A DNA stretch of 64,000 nucleotides from a bacterium (GTDB lineage Bacteria > Hinthialibacterota > Hinthialibacteria > OLB16): assembly GCA_022072055.1 (NCBI GenBank), contig JAJVIK010000020.1:62001-126000 (forward strand), read 5' to 3'. Both the position numbers and the translations under genes were made by a program. Below are positions 2,477 to 55,672 of the stretch, piece by piece (position 1 is the stretch's first letter; every line of letters starts with the position of its first letter). A model generated the notes under the pieces. That model had not been told where the DNA came from, made no database searches, and saw only the letters and a program-made list of their open reading frames with translations.

Positions 2477-4291
2477 TCAGGCCAAGGCGGTTGTGTTGGA
2501 GCGCTTCTCTCGCTCATAAAGGTCCAATCCGGTTCGGATCGCGCGGAGGGACTCGGCGTGGTTGCGCGAGAGGGATCCACCGGGACGAAACAGGCTGCTG
2601 GTCCCCGCCACCAGAATCTCCGCGCCCGCGGCAACCATTTTGGGGATGTTCTCAAAGCTCACATTGCCATCCACCTCGATGGGGATCGAGAGGCCGCGCG
2701 AATCCAGGAGCCTCCGGCAGTCGCCGATCTTGGCGAGAGTCGAAGGGACCAGCGCCTGGCCGGAGTAACCCGGATTGACCGTCATCAGCAAAACAAAGTC
2801 GAGTTTGTCGAGGACAAACTCCAGCGCCGAAAGCGGCGTCGCGGGGTTCAGCGCGACCCCCGCTCGGATTCCGTGATCGCGAATCAGCGCGACCGAGCGA
2901 TCCAGATGAGTGCTGCTTTCGGCATGGATGGAGAGCATCTCGACCCCGATCTCGGCCATCTCGCGGATAAAAAAATCGTTGTTCTCGACCATCAGGTGGA
3001 CATCGAAAGGGAGCGCGGTCTTGGGGCGAAGCCGTCGAAGGGTTTCCAATCCCAGCGGCATGTTGGGGACGAAGTGGGCGTCCATGATGTCCATGTGAAG
3101 GAGCTCGATTCCCAAGGCCTCAAGACGCCGAACCTCTTCCTCCAAGTGGCACGGATCCGCGCACATCAGGGAGGGGGCCAGGCGGACCCGAACGTGTTCT
3201 GGCCCGGAGTGCCACTCCGGGCCGGCATTCGTGGGCAGAGGAGTGAGTGGGCCAGGAGTTGCCCAGGGCGCCGGCGCGGAGTTGCACTCCGGTCCTTGCA
3301 CAAACGCCTCGCGCAGGTGCCGGATCGATTCCCTCAATTCCTCCTCCAAGAGGTGGTCCGTGTAATCCCGCCCGGTCTTGGGGCCGCCGATTTCGAGATA
3401 CCCGATCAGATCCGGAACAGGAATCAGGCTTGCCTTTTCAAGGAGCAAGGCTCGGATCGCGGAGATGTCCACGATCCCGCGCGCGCGCTGTTCGGCGGTG
3501 AACCCAAAGGTGGAGTTGAACAGGGAATCGGTGTTCTTGAGATGCAGCTCATGGGTGTAAGGCAGAGCCGCGAGCATGAGCGCGAGGTTGTCATGGATGA
3601 TCACACGCTCGCGGTTGGCGTAACCGTGCGCGACATCGAGGCAGTACCCGACGCGCGAGGTCGAATCCGGATTGAGGCGGTGGTAATCGAGGAGCTCCTC
3701 GGCCATCTCCCGCATCTCCTCGGGCAGCGTGGGCGGTTCGGCCAGGCACGACATCGGTTCGATTCCAAGAAAGCTCACGCCGCAATTGCCGGCATGGCGC
3801 ATCAGCCCCTTCATGTGGTCGATGTAGCAGCGTGTTCCGCGCGCCTTGAGTCCCATCTGATCTCGCGGGACCGCGCCCGGATTGGAGCCGACCGAGTCCG
3901 CGCCGACGAGCCTCCCCACCTCGATCAGTCGTTCGAAGTTCCTCCGCGCGACTTCGACAAAACCGGGTTCGGTCCGAAAAAAACCGCCGAGCTCCCGGTG
4001 GGCGGTGAAGATGCTGGAAATCCGGAGCCCGAAGTCATCGGCCTTGCTCCGGAGTTCGAGGAAGAACGCATCCGGGAGTTGGTATATCTCGAAGAAGGTC
4101 CCGAGCTGGACAAATCGGACCCGTTCCTCGGCGAGAATTCGGAAGAGCCAATCGTAGCTGAAGCGGTACTCAATCGGGTCAGCCTTGACTCCAAGGTGAA
4201 GTCGAAGTGGGGCCGGGTCCGGTTCGCGCCGTTCGGGGGAGGTCATGGGTTGGACAGCAAGGCTCATCAGTCGCCGCTGATCTTTGCACAT
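2477..4291 (-). CDS. fusion: xylose isomerase-like TIM barrel + ribulose-phosphate 3-epimerase
   Basis: One continuous 604-residue frame holds two enzymes. Residues about 25-330 form a sugar phosphate isomerase/epimerase (AP endonuclease 2 superfamily) barrel, with GIEPMS, CLDVAHGY and LHLKNTD segments. Residues about 370-595 form a ribulose-5-phosphate 3-epimerase: APSLMCAD, HMDIMDAHFVPN, DVHLMVEN, VNPGYSGQ and EVDGNV carry the expected metal ligands (His and Asp of HMDIMD, His of DVHLM, Asp of EVDG). The Pro/Gly-rich linker between them is encoded by palindromic repeats. No ATG, GTG or TTG stands just before the epimerase domain, so separate translation is unlikely. It is probably in an operon with the downstream dehydrogenase. 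Confidence 0.85.
   Translation of the reverse strand: MCKDQRRLMSLAVQPMTSPERREPDPAPLRLHLGVKADPIEYRFSYDWLFRILAEERVRFVQLGTFFEIYQLPDAFFLELRSKADDFGLRISSIFTAHRELGGFFRTEPGFVEVARRNFERLIEVGRLVGADSVGSNPGAVPRDQMGLKARGTRCYIDHMKGLMRHAGNCGVSFLGIEPMSCLAEPPTLPEEMREMAEELLDYHRLNPDSTSRVGYCLDVAHGYANRERVIIHDNLALMLAALPYTHELHLKNTDSLFNSTFGFTAEQRARGIVDISAIRALLLEKASLIPVPDLIGYLEIGGPKTGRDYTDHLLEEELRESIRHLREAFVQGPECNSAPAPWATPGPLTPLPTNAGPEWHSGPEHVRVRLAPSLMCADPCHLEEEVRRLEALGIELLHMDIMDAHFVPNMPLGLETLRRLRPKTALPFDVHLMVENNDFFIREMAEIGVEMLSIHAESSTHLDRSVALIRDHGIRAGVALNPATPLSALEFVLDKLDFVLLMTVNPGYSGQALVPSTLAKIGDCRRLLDSRGLSIPIEVDGNVSFENIPKMVAAGAEILVAGTSSLFRPGGSLSRNHAESLRAIRTGLDLYEREKRSNTTALA
3201..3291. repeat. palindromic repeats inside the fusion-gene linker
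   Basis: Positions 3201-3223 form a near-perfect palindrome, ggcccggagtg-c-cactccgggcc, with 11-base arms. Positions 3277-3291 hold a related smaller one (cggagt-tgc-actccg). Both are read in frame and give the odd linker peptides GPEWHSGPE and GPECNSAPAP. They sit exactly between the two enzyme domains. Confidence 0.7.
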
Positions 4292-4321: not shown

Positions 4322-5878
4322 TCAGGCTGACCGAGCATTGCGAAGGCAGGCGTAAGCGATGCGGATCTGTTCGTACGGAACCACGCCGCCGAGACGCTCG
4401 AAAGCCGGTCGAAGCCTCTGCACGCCGACCGCTCTTGCCGCCTCGCGTATCCGGTCGAATTCCTTGGGGGAGATCCAGGGTCCCGGATCGGTTCGACGGG
4501 AGTGGGCGATGAATTCCTCCAGGTAGCCGATCACCGTCGTCTCAGCGCGCTGGACTTGTCGGGCCACGGCGGTGATCGGAAGGCCGATCCGGAAAAGCTC
4601 AAAGGCGGCCTCGCGTGACTTGGAGAGAGTGAGGCGCGGTTTGCCGTTCCCCGCGCGAGCTTGTCTGGGACGGAGCTCCGCGGGGGGTAACCGAAGGCAA
4701 CGGTCGCACGCGCCGCAATCCGCGCGCGAATAAATCTCCCCGAAGTGGGCGAGCACGGCCTTTCTTCGACACCCCGCGGCCAGCGCAAAGGCGTGCATCC
4801 GGAGCAGCCCGGCGCGAGCCTTTCGGGTGACCTCGTTGCTGGGCGGACCCAGGAGCTTTTCCCAGGCGATCACATCGGACTGGGAATGGAACAGAAGGCA
4901 TTCGGATCGGAGGCCATCCCTGCCCGCGCGCCCGGTTTCCTGCTGGTACGCCTCCAGGTTCTTCGGCAGGGAGGCGTGAATCACATAGCGAATATCCGGC
5001 TTGTCGATTCCCATGCCGAACGCGACCGTGGCCACGAGGGTTTTGACCTCGCCCGAGAGGAACAACTCCTGGTTGCGTTTGCGGTCCTCATCCGACATCC
5101 CGGCATGGTAAGGCTTGGCGCTGAAACCATAGTCCTCAAGAACCAGCGCGATTCGCTCGGTTTGCCTGCGCGAAATGCAGTAGATGATCCCCGATTGGTC
5201 CGGGAAACGCTCAAGCGCCGCGGCCAGGTGGGCATCGCCGCGCGGTCGTGGAGTGCAGCGATAGAGCAGGTTTGGCCTGTCAAAGGAGCCAATCACCTTG
5301 ACCGGGTTTCGCAAACCAAGCTCGCGGCAGACATCCTCCCGCACCGAGGGGGACGCGGTGGCGGTGAAGGCGTGGATCGGGACATCCGGAAAGCGCTCCC
5401 GGAGGAGGCGAAGATCGCGATACTCGGGCCGGAACTCGTGCCCCCAGGTGCTGATGCAATGGGCCTCATCCACCGCGAAGAAAGAGATTTGAAACTTGGC
5501 CAGGGAATCGAGGAAAAGTTTGGAGAGAAGCCGCTCGGGCGCGACATAGAGCAACTTGAGCCTTCCCTCGCGGACGCCCCGCGCGATCCACTTGCGCTCC
5601 TCGATGCTGCTTGCGCTGGTGAGCTGCCCGGCGGGGATGCCTTTCGCGCGAAGGGTGTCCACCTGGTCCTTCATCAGCGCGATCAGGGGGGAAACCACCA
5701 CGGCGAGGCCCGGGAGGCACAAAGCGGGAACCTGGAAGCAGACCGACTTGCCGCCGCCGGTTGGGAGCACCGTCAGCGAGTCGCGGCGCTCAAGCGCGGC
5801 GCGGACCGCCTCGGCCTGACGCGGGAGGAATGTGGAGTACCCCCAGTATCGCCGGAGTTGAGAAAGGGCATGGTTCAT
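4322..5878 (-). CDS. recQ: RecQ-family ATP-dependent DNA helicase
   Basis: A 518-residue superfamily 2 3'-5' DNA helicase acting in recombination repair and fork restart. Motifs are Walker A PTGGGKS at 39-45, VVSPLIALMKDQV, the DEAHCIS box near 137, TATASP, and QETGRAGRDG near 310. A zinc-binding set of cysteines follows (GCRRK, then CGACDRC). The C-terminal 120 residues form a winged/HTH-like segment with a helix-turn-helix (PITAVARQVQRAETTVIGYLE). The aromatic-rich loop reads STWGHEFRPEYRDL. No HRDC domain is evident, so it is a short RecQ. Its promoter carries a palindrome shared with the Ski2-like helicase at 55.3 kb. It ends 30 bases before the fusion gene on the same strand. Confidence 0.93.
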   Translation of the reverse strand: MNHALSQLRRYWGYSTFLPRQAEAVRAALERRDSLTVLPTGGGKSVCFQVPALCLPGLAVVVSPLIALMKDQVDTLRAKGIPAGQLTSASSIEERKWIARGVREGRLKLLYVAPERLLSKLFLDSLAKFQISFFAVDEAHCISTWGHEFRPEYRDLRLLRERFPDVPIHAFTATASPSVREDVCRELGLRNPVKVIGSFDRPNLLYRCTPRPRGDAHLAAALERFPDQSGIIYCISRRQTERIALVLEDYGFSAKPYHAGMSDEDRKRNQELFLSGEVKTLVATVAFGMGIDKPDIRYVIHASLPKNLEAYQQETGRAGRDGLRSECLLFHSQSDVIAWEKLLGPPSNEVTRKARAGLLRMHAFALAAGCRRKAVLAHFGEIYSRADCGACDRCLRLPPAELRPRQARAGNGKPRLTLSKSREAAFELFRIGLPITAVARQVQRAETTVIGYLEEFIAHSRRTDPGPWISPKEFDRIREAARAVGVQRLRPAFERLGGVVPYEQIRIAYACLRNARSA

Positions 5879-5895: not shown

Positions 5896-5939
5896 AGTGA
5901 ATATAAATGCACTATAACCGCCTCGGGACCGATTGACAA
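5896..5939 (-). promoter_or_regulatory. recQ promoter with 18-bp palindromic operator
   Basis: Read on the minus strand, the -35 box is TTGTCA (5934-5939) and the -10 box is TATAGT (5911-5916), with a 17-base spacer. The imperfect palindrome AGTGCATTTATATTCACT (5896-5913) overlaps the -10 box and runs to 18 bases before the ATG. Fifteen of its 18 positions match the palindrome on the promoter of the helicase at 55271-55288. A repressor bound here would block RNA polymerase. Confidence 0.65.
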
Positions 5940-52510: not shown

Positions 52511-55270
52511 CTACCGAAGAAGCGCCTGGAGCGGTTCCGGGGTGGCCTCGGCGGTCCAGATCAGGGACTCCGAGGGAATTGCCAGTCGGTAGTGGCCCGC
52601 GCGGTCGCTTTCGATCCAGGCCGAATGGCCTGGGGGAGGCGGCCCCAGGCGCGCGCGCAGGTCGCTGATCCGCTGCGAGAGGTGCTCGGGATCGACCCCC
52701 AGCGCCTTCTTGGGAACCCAACCTTCGCTGTCCCCATTGAACCTTCCGCGAACCAAGCGCAGCAGGAGCTCCGCCCCACGCATCCCCATGAGCGCCTCTT
52801 GCTTCCAAGTCCTGGCCAGGAAGTAAGCCCCGCGAGTCTCGAAGTCCACGCACAGGAGCGCGGGACGGGCGCCCCTCGCCGCCTCCCCGTTCTTGGGGAG
52901 ACGGGAGGGGCTGGAGGTGGGGGCTTGGGCTGAGTTCGATGGGGGATTTGGGGGATGGCCGCTTGACCTTTGAGATTTCCTTCCGTTCCCGCGCGAGAGA
53001 ATCTCCTCCACAAAGGCGCGCACGCGCCCGAACCGCGAGGGCGAAAGGATTCGAGGGAAGTCCGCGGGATTCGCGGTAAGCAGGTCACGCGGGTGATGGA
53101 GTTCGCGGGCAAGGAGGATCTTGCGGTCCCGTTCGAGGAGATCCGAGGGAATCAGCTCCCAGGCCAAGGCCTCTTCCGGAAGTCCGCACCCGACCCGGCG
53201 CGCGAGTCCGCGCAGCGCCGCGCATCCCTCCGCGGAGCGCCCGCGCGCGCGCCAGATGTCCGCGAGCGCCTCCAGCAGCCAGCGCGCCCCTTCGCCAACC
53301 GCGTGCAGGCTCCCCGGCGAGAATCCGAGACGCTCCCGAAGGCGCGGGACAGGCTCGCCCGAGGCCCAAGCATGGAGTGCGCTAGCGAGCTTGGCGGCAT
53401 CCTCGGCGCGCCTTGAGACCGAGCCTTCCTCGGTCCAGCGTCCCCCCAGCGAATGCAGGCTCTCCCAACCCAGGCGCTCGCGCGCCTGCTCGACCCACCG
53501 CGCGCGCGCCTCGGGCTGGATTTCGCGCGGCCAGGACCATTCCTGGGTCTCCTCGGCGCCCGCGATCACCAAGAGGGCGAGAAGGTCGGAGGGGACATTC
53601 CCCTCGAAGCGTTGAACCCACTCGGCGAAGGTCCGAGCGGTCTCGAAGGAGAACCCGCGCAGCGCCACGACCCGCCCCAGCGGCGAGAGCTCGAAGCGCT
53701 CCCCCTCCGCATCGGGTGTGGGCAGCGCTTCGAGCAAGCCGAGGCTCCTCGCGCGCTCGATCCCTTCCGCCAAGCGCTGTTCGAGATGCGGCAGGGGAAT
53801 CGCCTTGGAGGAGAGGAGACCCGCGAGCAAGTCGAGGAGTTTTTTCGAGGTGTCTTGTCCCAAGGCCACCCCGGCGAGCAGGTGTGGTCCCAGATCGCCA
53901 GCCAGGAGTGTGGGGCGCAGCCTTGGGGCCAGGTCGGTCCAATAGAATCTCCGGTAGAGGTCCCACTCCCGCTGGTTCCGCGCGACCAGCAGCGCGCGAC
54001 CATGCGCCTCACCCAGGCCGAGCCGCCCGGCGCGACCGGCCATGTTTCGGACAAGAGCCTCCGGGAGCAGCGATAGGTCCCCGGCCTGCCCGCTCCGATT
54101 CCAGACAAAGGGGTGAATCAGCACGCTCCGGGCGGGGAGGTTGACCCCCATGGCGAGGGTGGAGGTGCAACACAGGATCCGCACCGCCCCGGAGCGAAAA
54201 GCCTCCTCCACCAGCGCACGGCTTCGGGGCGAACAGTCCGCGTGGTGGAAAGCGACCCCCTCGGAAAGGCAGAACTGAAGGGATTCATCCTCGAGATCCT
54301 CGGCTCCCTCGGGGAGTTGACCCACCGAACCCAGAAAGGGGGCCGCTTCGGCGAGCAGTCGCGCGGCTTGCTCGGCCTCGCGCCGGGTGGGGAGGAACAG
54401 GAGCACCGAACCATCCTCGTTGGAAAGCCCGACCGCAAGACGGAGCAGGTCTCCCTCGACTCCCCCTTCGGGATCGGAGATCGGCAGCGCCTCGGCCTCC
54501 ACCAAGCCGGTGTTGTGGGAGCGATAGATGGAGACCCAGATGTTGGCCACGCTTGGGGGGCGTTGGACGCCATATTCCTCCAGCGCCGTTCGCGCGAGTT
54601 CCCCATCCGCGAGGACAATTCCTTGGCGCAGATCGATGGGCCGTCGCCGCGCGGTGAGGATCCGCCCCCCAAAGTCGTCGATCAGCGGGTCATCCGGGGC
54701 GATCACGCCGAGCAGGCCGATCCGCCGCACGCGAGGGACCCCGCGCTTGAGCAAGGCGAGCAGGAATTCAAGGTCCGGGCCGCGCGCCTGGTCCTCCACC
54801 CCCTGGAGTTCATCCACCACCGCCACGCCGATCCCGCGAAGGAAGGTCGGTTCACGCAGCGCGAGGTGTTTGAGCTTCTCGTGGATCAGAACCGCAATGT
54901 CGTAGTCCCCGCGCTCCAGGTCCGAGAGATGCTCGGAATACTCGCCGGTGGCGAGGCGGATTCGGAGACCGTATTTGGCGTAGCGGCGACTGAAGAGCTC
55001 GAACTTCTCGCGGGCGAGGGCCTTGAGGGGAACGGAAAAGACCGCGCGCTTGCCGAGCAGCGCCGCTCCGACCCCGGCCAGCTCGCCGATGAGGGTCTTG
55101 CCGCAAGAGGTGGGGAGGGAGACCAGCAGGTCCTCTTCACCGAGGAGGTTGCAGCGCAGGACCGCCTCGACCTGCGGCTCGAGCAGTTCGGTGACCCCAT
55201 CGGCCTTGAGGGCTTCGAGGATGCCCTTGGGGAACCCGAAACGGGAGAGGATCTCAATCGACGCGGACAT
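52511..55270 (-). CDS. Ski2-like (Hel308/Brr2-type) superfamily 2 helicase
   Basis: 919 residues from the ATG at 55270; any earlier start would run antisense through the ParD gene. The helicase core shows SLPTSCGKTLIGEL (Walker A near 47-52), VPLKALAREK, VVDELQGVED (a DELQ variant of the DExH box), FLPTRREAEQAARLL, ILCCTSTLAMGVNLPA and MAGRAGRLG. The C-terminus beyond residue 550 is helical and ends in a winged-helix-like segment (GWVPKKALGVDPEHLSQRIS). Hel308-type enzymes unwind stalled forks. Its promoter carries the palindrome also found at recQ. Confidence 0.88.
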   Translation of the reverse strand: MSASIEILSRFGFPKGILEALKADGVTELLEPQVEAVLRCNLLGEEDLLVSLPTSCGKTLIGELAGVGAALLGKRAVFSVPLKALAREKFELFSRRYAKYGLRIRLATGEYSEHLSDLERGDYDIAVLIHEKLKHLALREPTFLRGIGVAVVDELQGVEDQARGPDLEFLLALLKRGVPRVRRIGLLGVIAPDDPLIDDFGGRILTARRRPIDLRQGIVLADGELARTALEEYGVQRPPSVANIWVSIYRSHNTGLVEAEALPISDPEGGVEGDLLRLAVGLSNEDGSVLLFLPTRREAEQAARLLAEAAPFLGSVGQLPEGAEDLEDESLQFCLSEGVAFHHADCSPRSRALVEEAFRSGAVRILCCTSTLAMGVNLPARSVLIHPFVWNRSGQAGDLSLLPEALVRNMAGRAGRLGLGEAHGRALLVARNQREWDLYRRFYWTDLAPRLRPTLLAGDLGPHLLAGVALGQDTSKKLLDLLAGLLSSKAIPLPHLEQRLAEGIERARSLGLLEALPTPDAEGERFELSPLGRVVALRGFSFETARTFAEWVQRFEGNVPSDLLALLVIAGAEETQEWSWPREIQPEARARWVEQARERLGWESLHSLGGRWTEEGSVSRRAEDAAKLASALHAWASGEPVPRLRERLGFSPGSLHAVGEGARWLLEALADIWRARGRSAEGCAALRGLARRVGCGLPEEALAWELIPSDLLERDRKILLARELHHPRDLLTANPADFPRILSPSRFGRVRAFVEEILSRGNGRKSQRSSGHPPNPPSNSAQAPTSSPSRLPKNGEAARGARPALLCVDFETRGAYFLARTWKQEALMGMRGAELLLRLVRGRFNGDSEGWVPKKALGVDPEHLSQRISDLRARLGPPPPGHSAWIESDRAGHYRLAIPSESLIWTAEATPEPLQALLR

Positions 55271-55305
55271 AGTGCATGTATATGCACTTTCCGTTTGGTT
55301 GTCAA
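55271..55305 (-). promoter_or_regulatory. helicase promoter with 18-bp palindromic operator
   Basis: On the minus strand TTGACA (55300-55305) and TATACA (55277-55282) are spaced by 17 bases. The palindrome AGTGCATATACATGCACT (55271-55288) covers the -10 box and touches the ATG at 55270. The expected transcript start is at or next to the A of ATG, so the mRNA is probably leaderless. The palindrome matches that at recQ (5896-5913) in 15 of 18 positions. Confidence 0.68.
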
Positions 55306-55408
55306 GGGAAAATTCCAGGTCGCGGGTGATCTTGCCGAAAAAATCGCCCAATTGAAGCGGCGTGCTTGAGCCGCCAAAATGATCTCGCGCAAGGAGGCGC
55401 CATGGAGC

Positions 55409-55672
55409 ATGGGTGCATTGACCATCGACATCCCCGAGCCGATCCAGAAATGGCTGGAGAGCCGTCTCGAAGGGAGTGAGTACAAGACCCCCGAGGAATA
55501 TGTTCTTTCTCTGCTTCGCGAAGAACGGAAACGGAGCGCGGAAGAGCGTCTGGAGGAGTTGCTGCTGGAAGGGTTGGAGAGCGGGCCGCCGATTGAGTAC
55601 ACGGAGGAATCCTGGAGGAAGAAGAAAGATGCCTTGGCGGAACGTCTCCGAGCACCGGCGGGGCACAAGTGA
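55409..55672 (+). CDS. parD: ParD-family antitoxin
   Basis: 87 residues from the ATG at 55409, which has AAGGAGG 11 bases upstream. The ribbon-helix-helix reads MGALTIDIPEPIQKWLESRL and YKTPEEYVLSLLREE, followed by a C-terminal toxin-binding helix (EESWRKKKDALAERLRA). It binds DNA and neutralises ParE. Its stop overlaps the GTG of parE by four bases (GTGA). It is divergent from the helicase gene. Confidence 0.85.
   Translation: MGALTIDIPEPIQKWLESRLEGSEYKTPEEYVLSLLREERKRSAEERLEELLLEGLESGPPIEYTEESWRKKKDALAERLRAPAGHK

Follow-up and report, generated by a model that had tools for sequence, protein, structure and literature searches.

Two helicase genes in the window (the whole stretch of 64,000 nucleotides analysed here) each carry a palindrome on the -10 box of their promoter, which raises the question of whether one repressor controls both and, if so, which repressor it is. 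The preliminary description had placed these palindromes at recQ and at a Ski2-like helicase gene, about 49 kb apart, with 15 of 18 positions identical and a 17-base spacer in both promoters, and each of these statements held on recounting, the separation being 49.4 kb (Table 1). The first gene product is a RecQ protein scoring well above the family cut-off (TIGR00614, 463 bits vs 219.8). The second has its best solved relatives among archaeal Hel308 proteins (2p6r, E 3.8e-53) and falls below the Hel308 equivalog cut-off (NF040935, 176 bits vs 1200); judged by these scores, it is a bacterial Hel308 homologue and not an equivalog. As to the neighbours, the gene downstream of recQ (2477-4291, minus strand) encodes a xylose-isomerase-like TIM barrel (PF01261) fused to a ribulose-phosphate 3-epimerase domain (PF00834), while a small ORF divergent from the helicase gene (55403-55672, plus strand), with a short ORF starting right behind it, resembles a ParD-type antitoxin on visual inspection and has no Pfam match at 0.001.

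Table 1. Coordinates of candidate operators, promoter boxes and genes; positions are those of the window unless a locus is named
Feature	Position	Strand	Details
LexA-type operator of recQ (candidate)	5896..5913	-	AGTGCATTTATATTCACT; plus strand AGTGAATATAAATGCACT
recQ -10 box	5911..5916	-	TATAGT; overlapped by the operator
recQ -35 box	5934..5939	-	TTGTCA; 17-bp spacer to -10
recQ-family DNA helicase gene	4322..5878	-	Pfam DEAD, Helicase_C, RecQ_Zn_bind, HTH_40
LexA-type operator of the Hel308/Ski2-like helicase gene (candidate)	55271..55288	-	AGTGCATATACATGCACT; directly abuts the start codon
Helicase -10 box	55277..55282	-	TATACA; within the operator; ATG 6 nt later
Helicase -35 box	55300..55305	-	TTGACA; 17-bp spacer to -10
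Hel308/Ski2-like superfamily 2 DNA helicase gene	52511..55270	-	start codon 55268-55270
RecA-fold paralogue, about 200-233 aa	L157:6150-6851 (genome C6); L158:1818-2411; L159 from about 1205	-; -; +	

The operator form first suggested, AGTGCAT-N4-ATGCACT with three mismatches allowed, is not significantly enriched in the window alone (3 matches vs 1.12 expected) and only weakly so in the 5.86-Mb genome (120 matches vs 91 for a reversed control). The genome scan at this stringency is near chance and uninformative by itself, but a tighter form stands out. This form, GTGNATNTANATNCAC, which was defined only after inspection of the first three sites (recQ, the helicase and comM), has exactly three matches in 5.86 Mb and none for the reversed control (four and one, respectively, with one mismatch); 60 other genomes gave only three single matches, and the exact form is therefore not general. 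The third match in the genome (C10:155819-155836) precedes the start codon of comM (yifB) by 15 bp, overlapping a -10 box TATAGT that stands 17 bp from TGGACA. The ComM/YifB protein is full-length, with Lon-like, Mg-chelatase AAA+ and C-terminal domains (PF13541, PF01078, PF13335), and scores 645.6 bits against a TIGR00368 cut-off of 362.4. One operator common to recQ, the Hel308-like helicase and a branch-migration helicase pointed to recombination repair.

A related box is found at lexA and recA in each of three genomes that represent three genera of one family (G000, the source genome; G001; and G002). In the source genome lexA lies at C2:285538, and the promoter spacer between TTGCTT and TACACT holds TTGCATCTTAGTGCAC; the lexA promoters of the other two genera hold TTGCATTTTTGTGCAG (G002) and TTGCATCTTTGTGCAG at the same place, so that in each of the three genomes the operator sits between -35 and -10, within a spacer of 17 bp. 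At recA the box directly follows the -10 box TATATT in all three genomes (GTGACAATAAATGCA in two and GTGACATTAAATGCA in the third). The family box can be written STGHHHWWANRTGCA, with a TTGCAT-N4-GTGCA-like form at lexA, and the symmetric form proposed earlier is not its best description: the RTGCA half and A10 are invariant, and the other half reads AGTGAC, AGTGAA or AGTGCA. This consensus occurs at eight places in the 5.86-Mb genome compared to two for the reversed control, five of them (lexA, recA, comM, recQ and the helicase) being the sites from which it was derived, and three being new: the promoter of a RecA-fold paralogue, a divergent promoter at nrdJ and a place by clpB. The last (C8:132791), a weak match of 13.4 bits that did not turn up in relatives, was set aside. 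Three genome positions match TGCAY-N4-RTGCA: the lexA promoter, the helicase and C2:13889, where the perfect match falls within a repetitive surface-protein gene and was taken as chance. Of the one-mismatch matches to GTGCAYN4RTGCAC that were inspected in the three genomes, most fall inside genes.

For scoring we used a matrix of 26 bits, made from 14 sites at five genes in the three genomes of the family. The matrix scan covered the window and the fetched stretches and the whole genome was searched by patterns only, so the list of regulon members given here is not complete. In the window the recQ site scores best (31.0 bits), followed by the helicase site (28.3 bits), with the next place at 14.2 bits; the best scores in 20 dinucleotide shuffles were 8-13 bits, with one of 18.3. 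When each gene was left out of the matrix in turn, its sites were equalled or exceeded by between zero and three of 186,616 background positions. The recQ site scored 30.2 bits under this procedure, with no background position as high. The recA sites scored 9.8-16.2 bits, with 0-3 positions as high, although these sites and the G002 recQ site were chosen as the best-scoring places of their own promoter regions, which biases their scores somewhat upwards; that they stand at a fixed place beside the -10 box in several genera is stronger evidence than the scores. The weakest values were 8.3 bits for the lexA site of the source genome and 9.8 bits for one recA site.

Conservation in orthologous promoters, on which the earlier proposal of a shared operator also hung, is clear for lexA, recA, comM and the helicase, each with a box in G000, G001 and G002. 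Twelve orthologue pairs were compared, and their sites agree at 180 of 216 positions (83%), against 278 of 720 (39%) in the 60 bp upstream. The helicase box (ACTGCATATACATGCACT and AGTGCATATATGTGCACT in the relatives) always lies over the -10 box, with the ATG right behind it, and the helicase mRNA is predicted to be leaderless in all three genomes, the start codon beginning some 6-7 nt downstream of the -10 box. At recQ the box is present in both genomes that have a close recQ, there being none in G001; the G002 copy is degenerate, lies on the -10 box and is shifted on the promoter. In other families of the class, comM has no such box in its promoter.

A single LexA protein exceeds the thresholds in the source genome (PF01726, E 2.8e-16; TIGR00498, 190.5 bits with a cut-off of 110.95), and its S24 peptidase domain matches PF00717 at 114.9 bits. 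The cleavage pair A144-G145, S182 (in GDSM) and K219 (in ATVKR) are invariant in the alignment; the determinants of self-cleavage are present, and cleavage is predicted from these residues only. Compared to sister families, the family LexA has a hinge extended by roughly 35 residues (L034:1501-2289, residues about 90-135), the end of which is conserved as GL(S/T)HWWK(A/P/S)LPI. Because a conserved box stands at the promoters of lexA, recA and repair genes, and because this LexA carries both cleavage and catalytic residues, the repressor is most likely LexA, and we are highly confident that the palindromes represent the LexA boxes (SOS boxes) of this family, controlling recombination-repair genes. 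The earlier suggestion of a LexA with a lineage-specific SOS box is thereby strengthened, and the clustering expected of such a box was found at lexA, recA, comM, recQ and the helicase gene.

Repression by promoter occlusion and release by RecA-stimulated self-cleavage are established features of LexA in SOS biology. In undamaged cells of this lineage a LexA dimer on the box would block RNA polymerase, the box overlapping the -10 box, the spacer or the predicted start point of each promoter, and on DNA damage RecA bound to single-stranded DNA would trigger LexA self-cleavage, so that lexA, recA, comM, recQ, the Hel308-like helicase gene and the RecA-fold paralogue would be induced together, the divergent promoter of nrdJ and a small membrane protein probably being switched on as well. 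Binding, repression and damage induction at the predicted boxes are what we infer from the sites and the protein. Several features fit this less well, namely the lack of a Y-family polymerase under the box, the degenerate recQ site of G002, the recA half-site GTGAC, which departs from symmetry, and the register of the box on the promoter, which differs between genes.

The regulator being inferred from its sites, another repressor such as an S24-family or XRE-type DNA-damage regulator might bind the box and control lexA, recA and the helicases. Regulators acting in parallel in the damage response of other bacteria, as UmuDAb or DdiA, are described in two reports (PMC12288472, PMC11332147), and the source genome has further LexA-HTH-like matches. 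These matches are all weak and below cut-off, however, whereas the LexA described above carries the cleavage residues; in addition, a box within the lexA promoter itself in three genera is the classic sign of LexA autoregulation, and a related dyad-N4-dyad also stands in front of lexA in Fibrobacterales and in other families of this class. We therefore consider a different repressor improbable. Operators of the CRP-like, NrdR, CIRCE and NsrR kinds were compared and rejected for wrong half-site orientation or spacing.

A competence (DNA-uptake) regulon, in which comM and recQ would be induced for transformation and not as part of an SOS response, is less probable still. It draws on the description of comM as encoding a transformation-specific helicase in Gram-negative bacteria (PMC11612176). 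The site lies on lexA and recA, however, and none of the eight genome places of STGHHHWWANRTGCA is at dprA, comEA or comEC. Nor are a Hel308-like helicase gene and nrdJ known as competence genes. That the two sites are a chance pair of AT-rich palindromes, -10 boxes being AT-rich and partly self-complementary, would agree with the near-chance result of the three-mismatch pattern in window and genome but has a negligible probability, given that all three genome matches of the tight form fall on recombination or repair promoters, that the sites are conserved in other genera where their flanks are not, and that leave-one-gene-out scoring and conserved TGCA bases outside the -10 box also speak against it.

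Taking the box as that of LexA, the notion of a repressor of two helicases stood as regards the common operator and was too narrow as regards the regulon, which would include at least lexA, recA, comM, recQ, the helicase gene and the RecA-fold paralogue; nrdJ or the gene divergent from it is a probable further member. The RecA-fold paralogue (C6:47853) has weak RadA/Rad51 matches and, on reading the sequence, no Walker A motif; its box is present in each of the three genomes, and an ImuA-like role would be a guess. Its core is strongly conserved (VYCLDAGNxFxPYPLA...VSRAATCHQ), and its mRNA is predicted to be leaderless in at least two genomes. In the predicted leaderless mRNAs of the helicase and of the paralogue alike (window 55268-55282; L078, L080, L134, L154), the start codon comes 6-7 nt or so behind the -10 box and lies inside the LexA-type box or abuts it. 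The divergent promoter between nrdJ, encoding a class II ribonucleotide reductase, and the gene for a small membrane protein has its box at C10:143170 and again in G002, and one of these two genes probably belongs to the regulon. Strong boxes were also seen on the promoters of a PA0069-family radical SAM gene (L143:416-1498, minus strand) and a DUF3276/PUR-type gene (L129:1273-1566, plus strand), as far as seen in G002 only.

Elsewhere the SOS core includes Y-family polymerases (PMC8565304), but no PF00817 match was found in G000 or G001, despite the presence of lexA and recA, and the single Y-family polymerase gene of G002 has no box. Such a polymerase is a usual and not an obligatory member of the response, and its absence limits the predicted content of the regulon, not the assignment of the box to LexA. 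Taken together, the set resembles an SOS response particular to this lineage and centred on recombination repair. We put forward tentatively, as somewhat less than an even chance, that ComM is a permanent part of the reaction to DNA damage here, within a recombination-only SOS that would jointly induce RecA, a RecA-fold partner lacking Walker A, ComM, RecQ and the Hel308-like helicase, together with nrdJ for the supply of nucleotides and with no Y-family error-prone polymerase. The statement that ComM is 'exclusively' a transformation factor concerns the species studied (PMC11612176), and the placing of comM in an SOS regulon is a prediction on regulation, not proof of a repair role. A limited literature search found no paper pairing a LexA regulon with a magnesium chelatase, and this is weak evidence that such a link is new.

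Wide shifts in the LexA motif are on record, with 17 distinct motifs reported by 2021 (PMC8565304). To these the present analysis adds a predicted box for an uncharacterised family, and it names comM and the Hel308-like helicase gene, beside recA and recQ, as probable SOS targets of the lineage. It also makes possible a direct test of ComM in DNA repair, and not only in transformation.

In E. coli, LexA represses its own gene, recA and repair helicases stand under one operator, and repression works through overlap with the promoter. The system predicted here is alike in all of these respects and differs in having another box, in including comM and the Hel308-like helicase gene and in having no boxed Y-family polymerase. 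The E. coli box itself is CTG(TA)5CAG (PMC3091678). The Gram-positive and cyanobacterial boxes, CGAAC-N4-GTTCG and AGTACWNWTGTACT (PMC3091678), have the same N4-spaced dyad geometry, but this family often has C in place of the central A of GAAC (GCAY). Mixed forms, e.g. GTGAACATAAGTGTAC and ATGAACAGAAGTGCAC, stand in the lexA promoters of sister families within the class and resemble the GAAC-N4-GTTC type of B. subtilis (PMC3091678). With GTGAAC in one half and GTGCAC in the other, these intermediates make the step from a GAAC-type to a GCAY-type half-site traceable within one class. As a separate observation, the lexA promoter of the unclassified bacterium M3-30_Bin_374 (L191) holds CTGCACATTTGTGCAG, almost the family lexA box, and its LexA has a similar recognition helix (STNGVRYF).

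Among the closest known boxes is the Fibrobacter type, reportedly described by Mazon et al. as TGCNC-N4-GTGCA. Set against this form, our lexA sites fit TGCAY-N4-RTGCA, and recA, recQ and most comM sites fit one half only. Both types are dyad-N4-dyad palindromes on TGC/GCA, and a Fibrobacterales lexA promoter (L168) has TGCCCTTTTGTGCA following TTGACA, an arrangement that aligns almost exactly with the lexA promoter of G002 (TTGCATTTTTGTGCAG) and gives it a promoter position like that of TTGCATTTTTGTGCA in G002. The differences lie in the half-site RTGCA, the wider AGTG flank, the invariant A10 and the other half, GTGAC or GTGAA, and the lineage is a different one, with LexA proteins only 38% identical. 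By its sequence, the predicted family box is thus close to the Fibrobacter type and falls within the known kind of N4-spaced dyads, of which it is a new variant.
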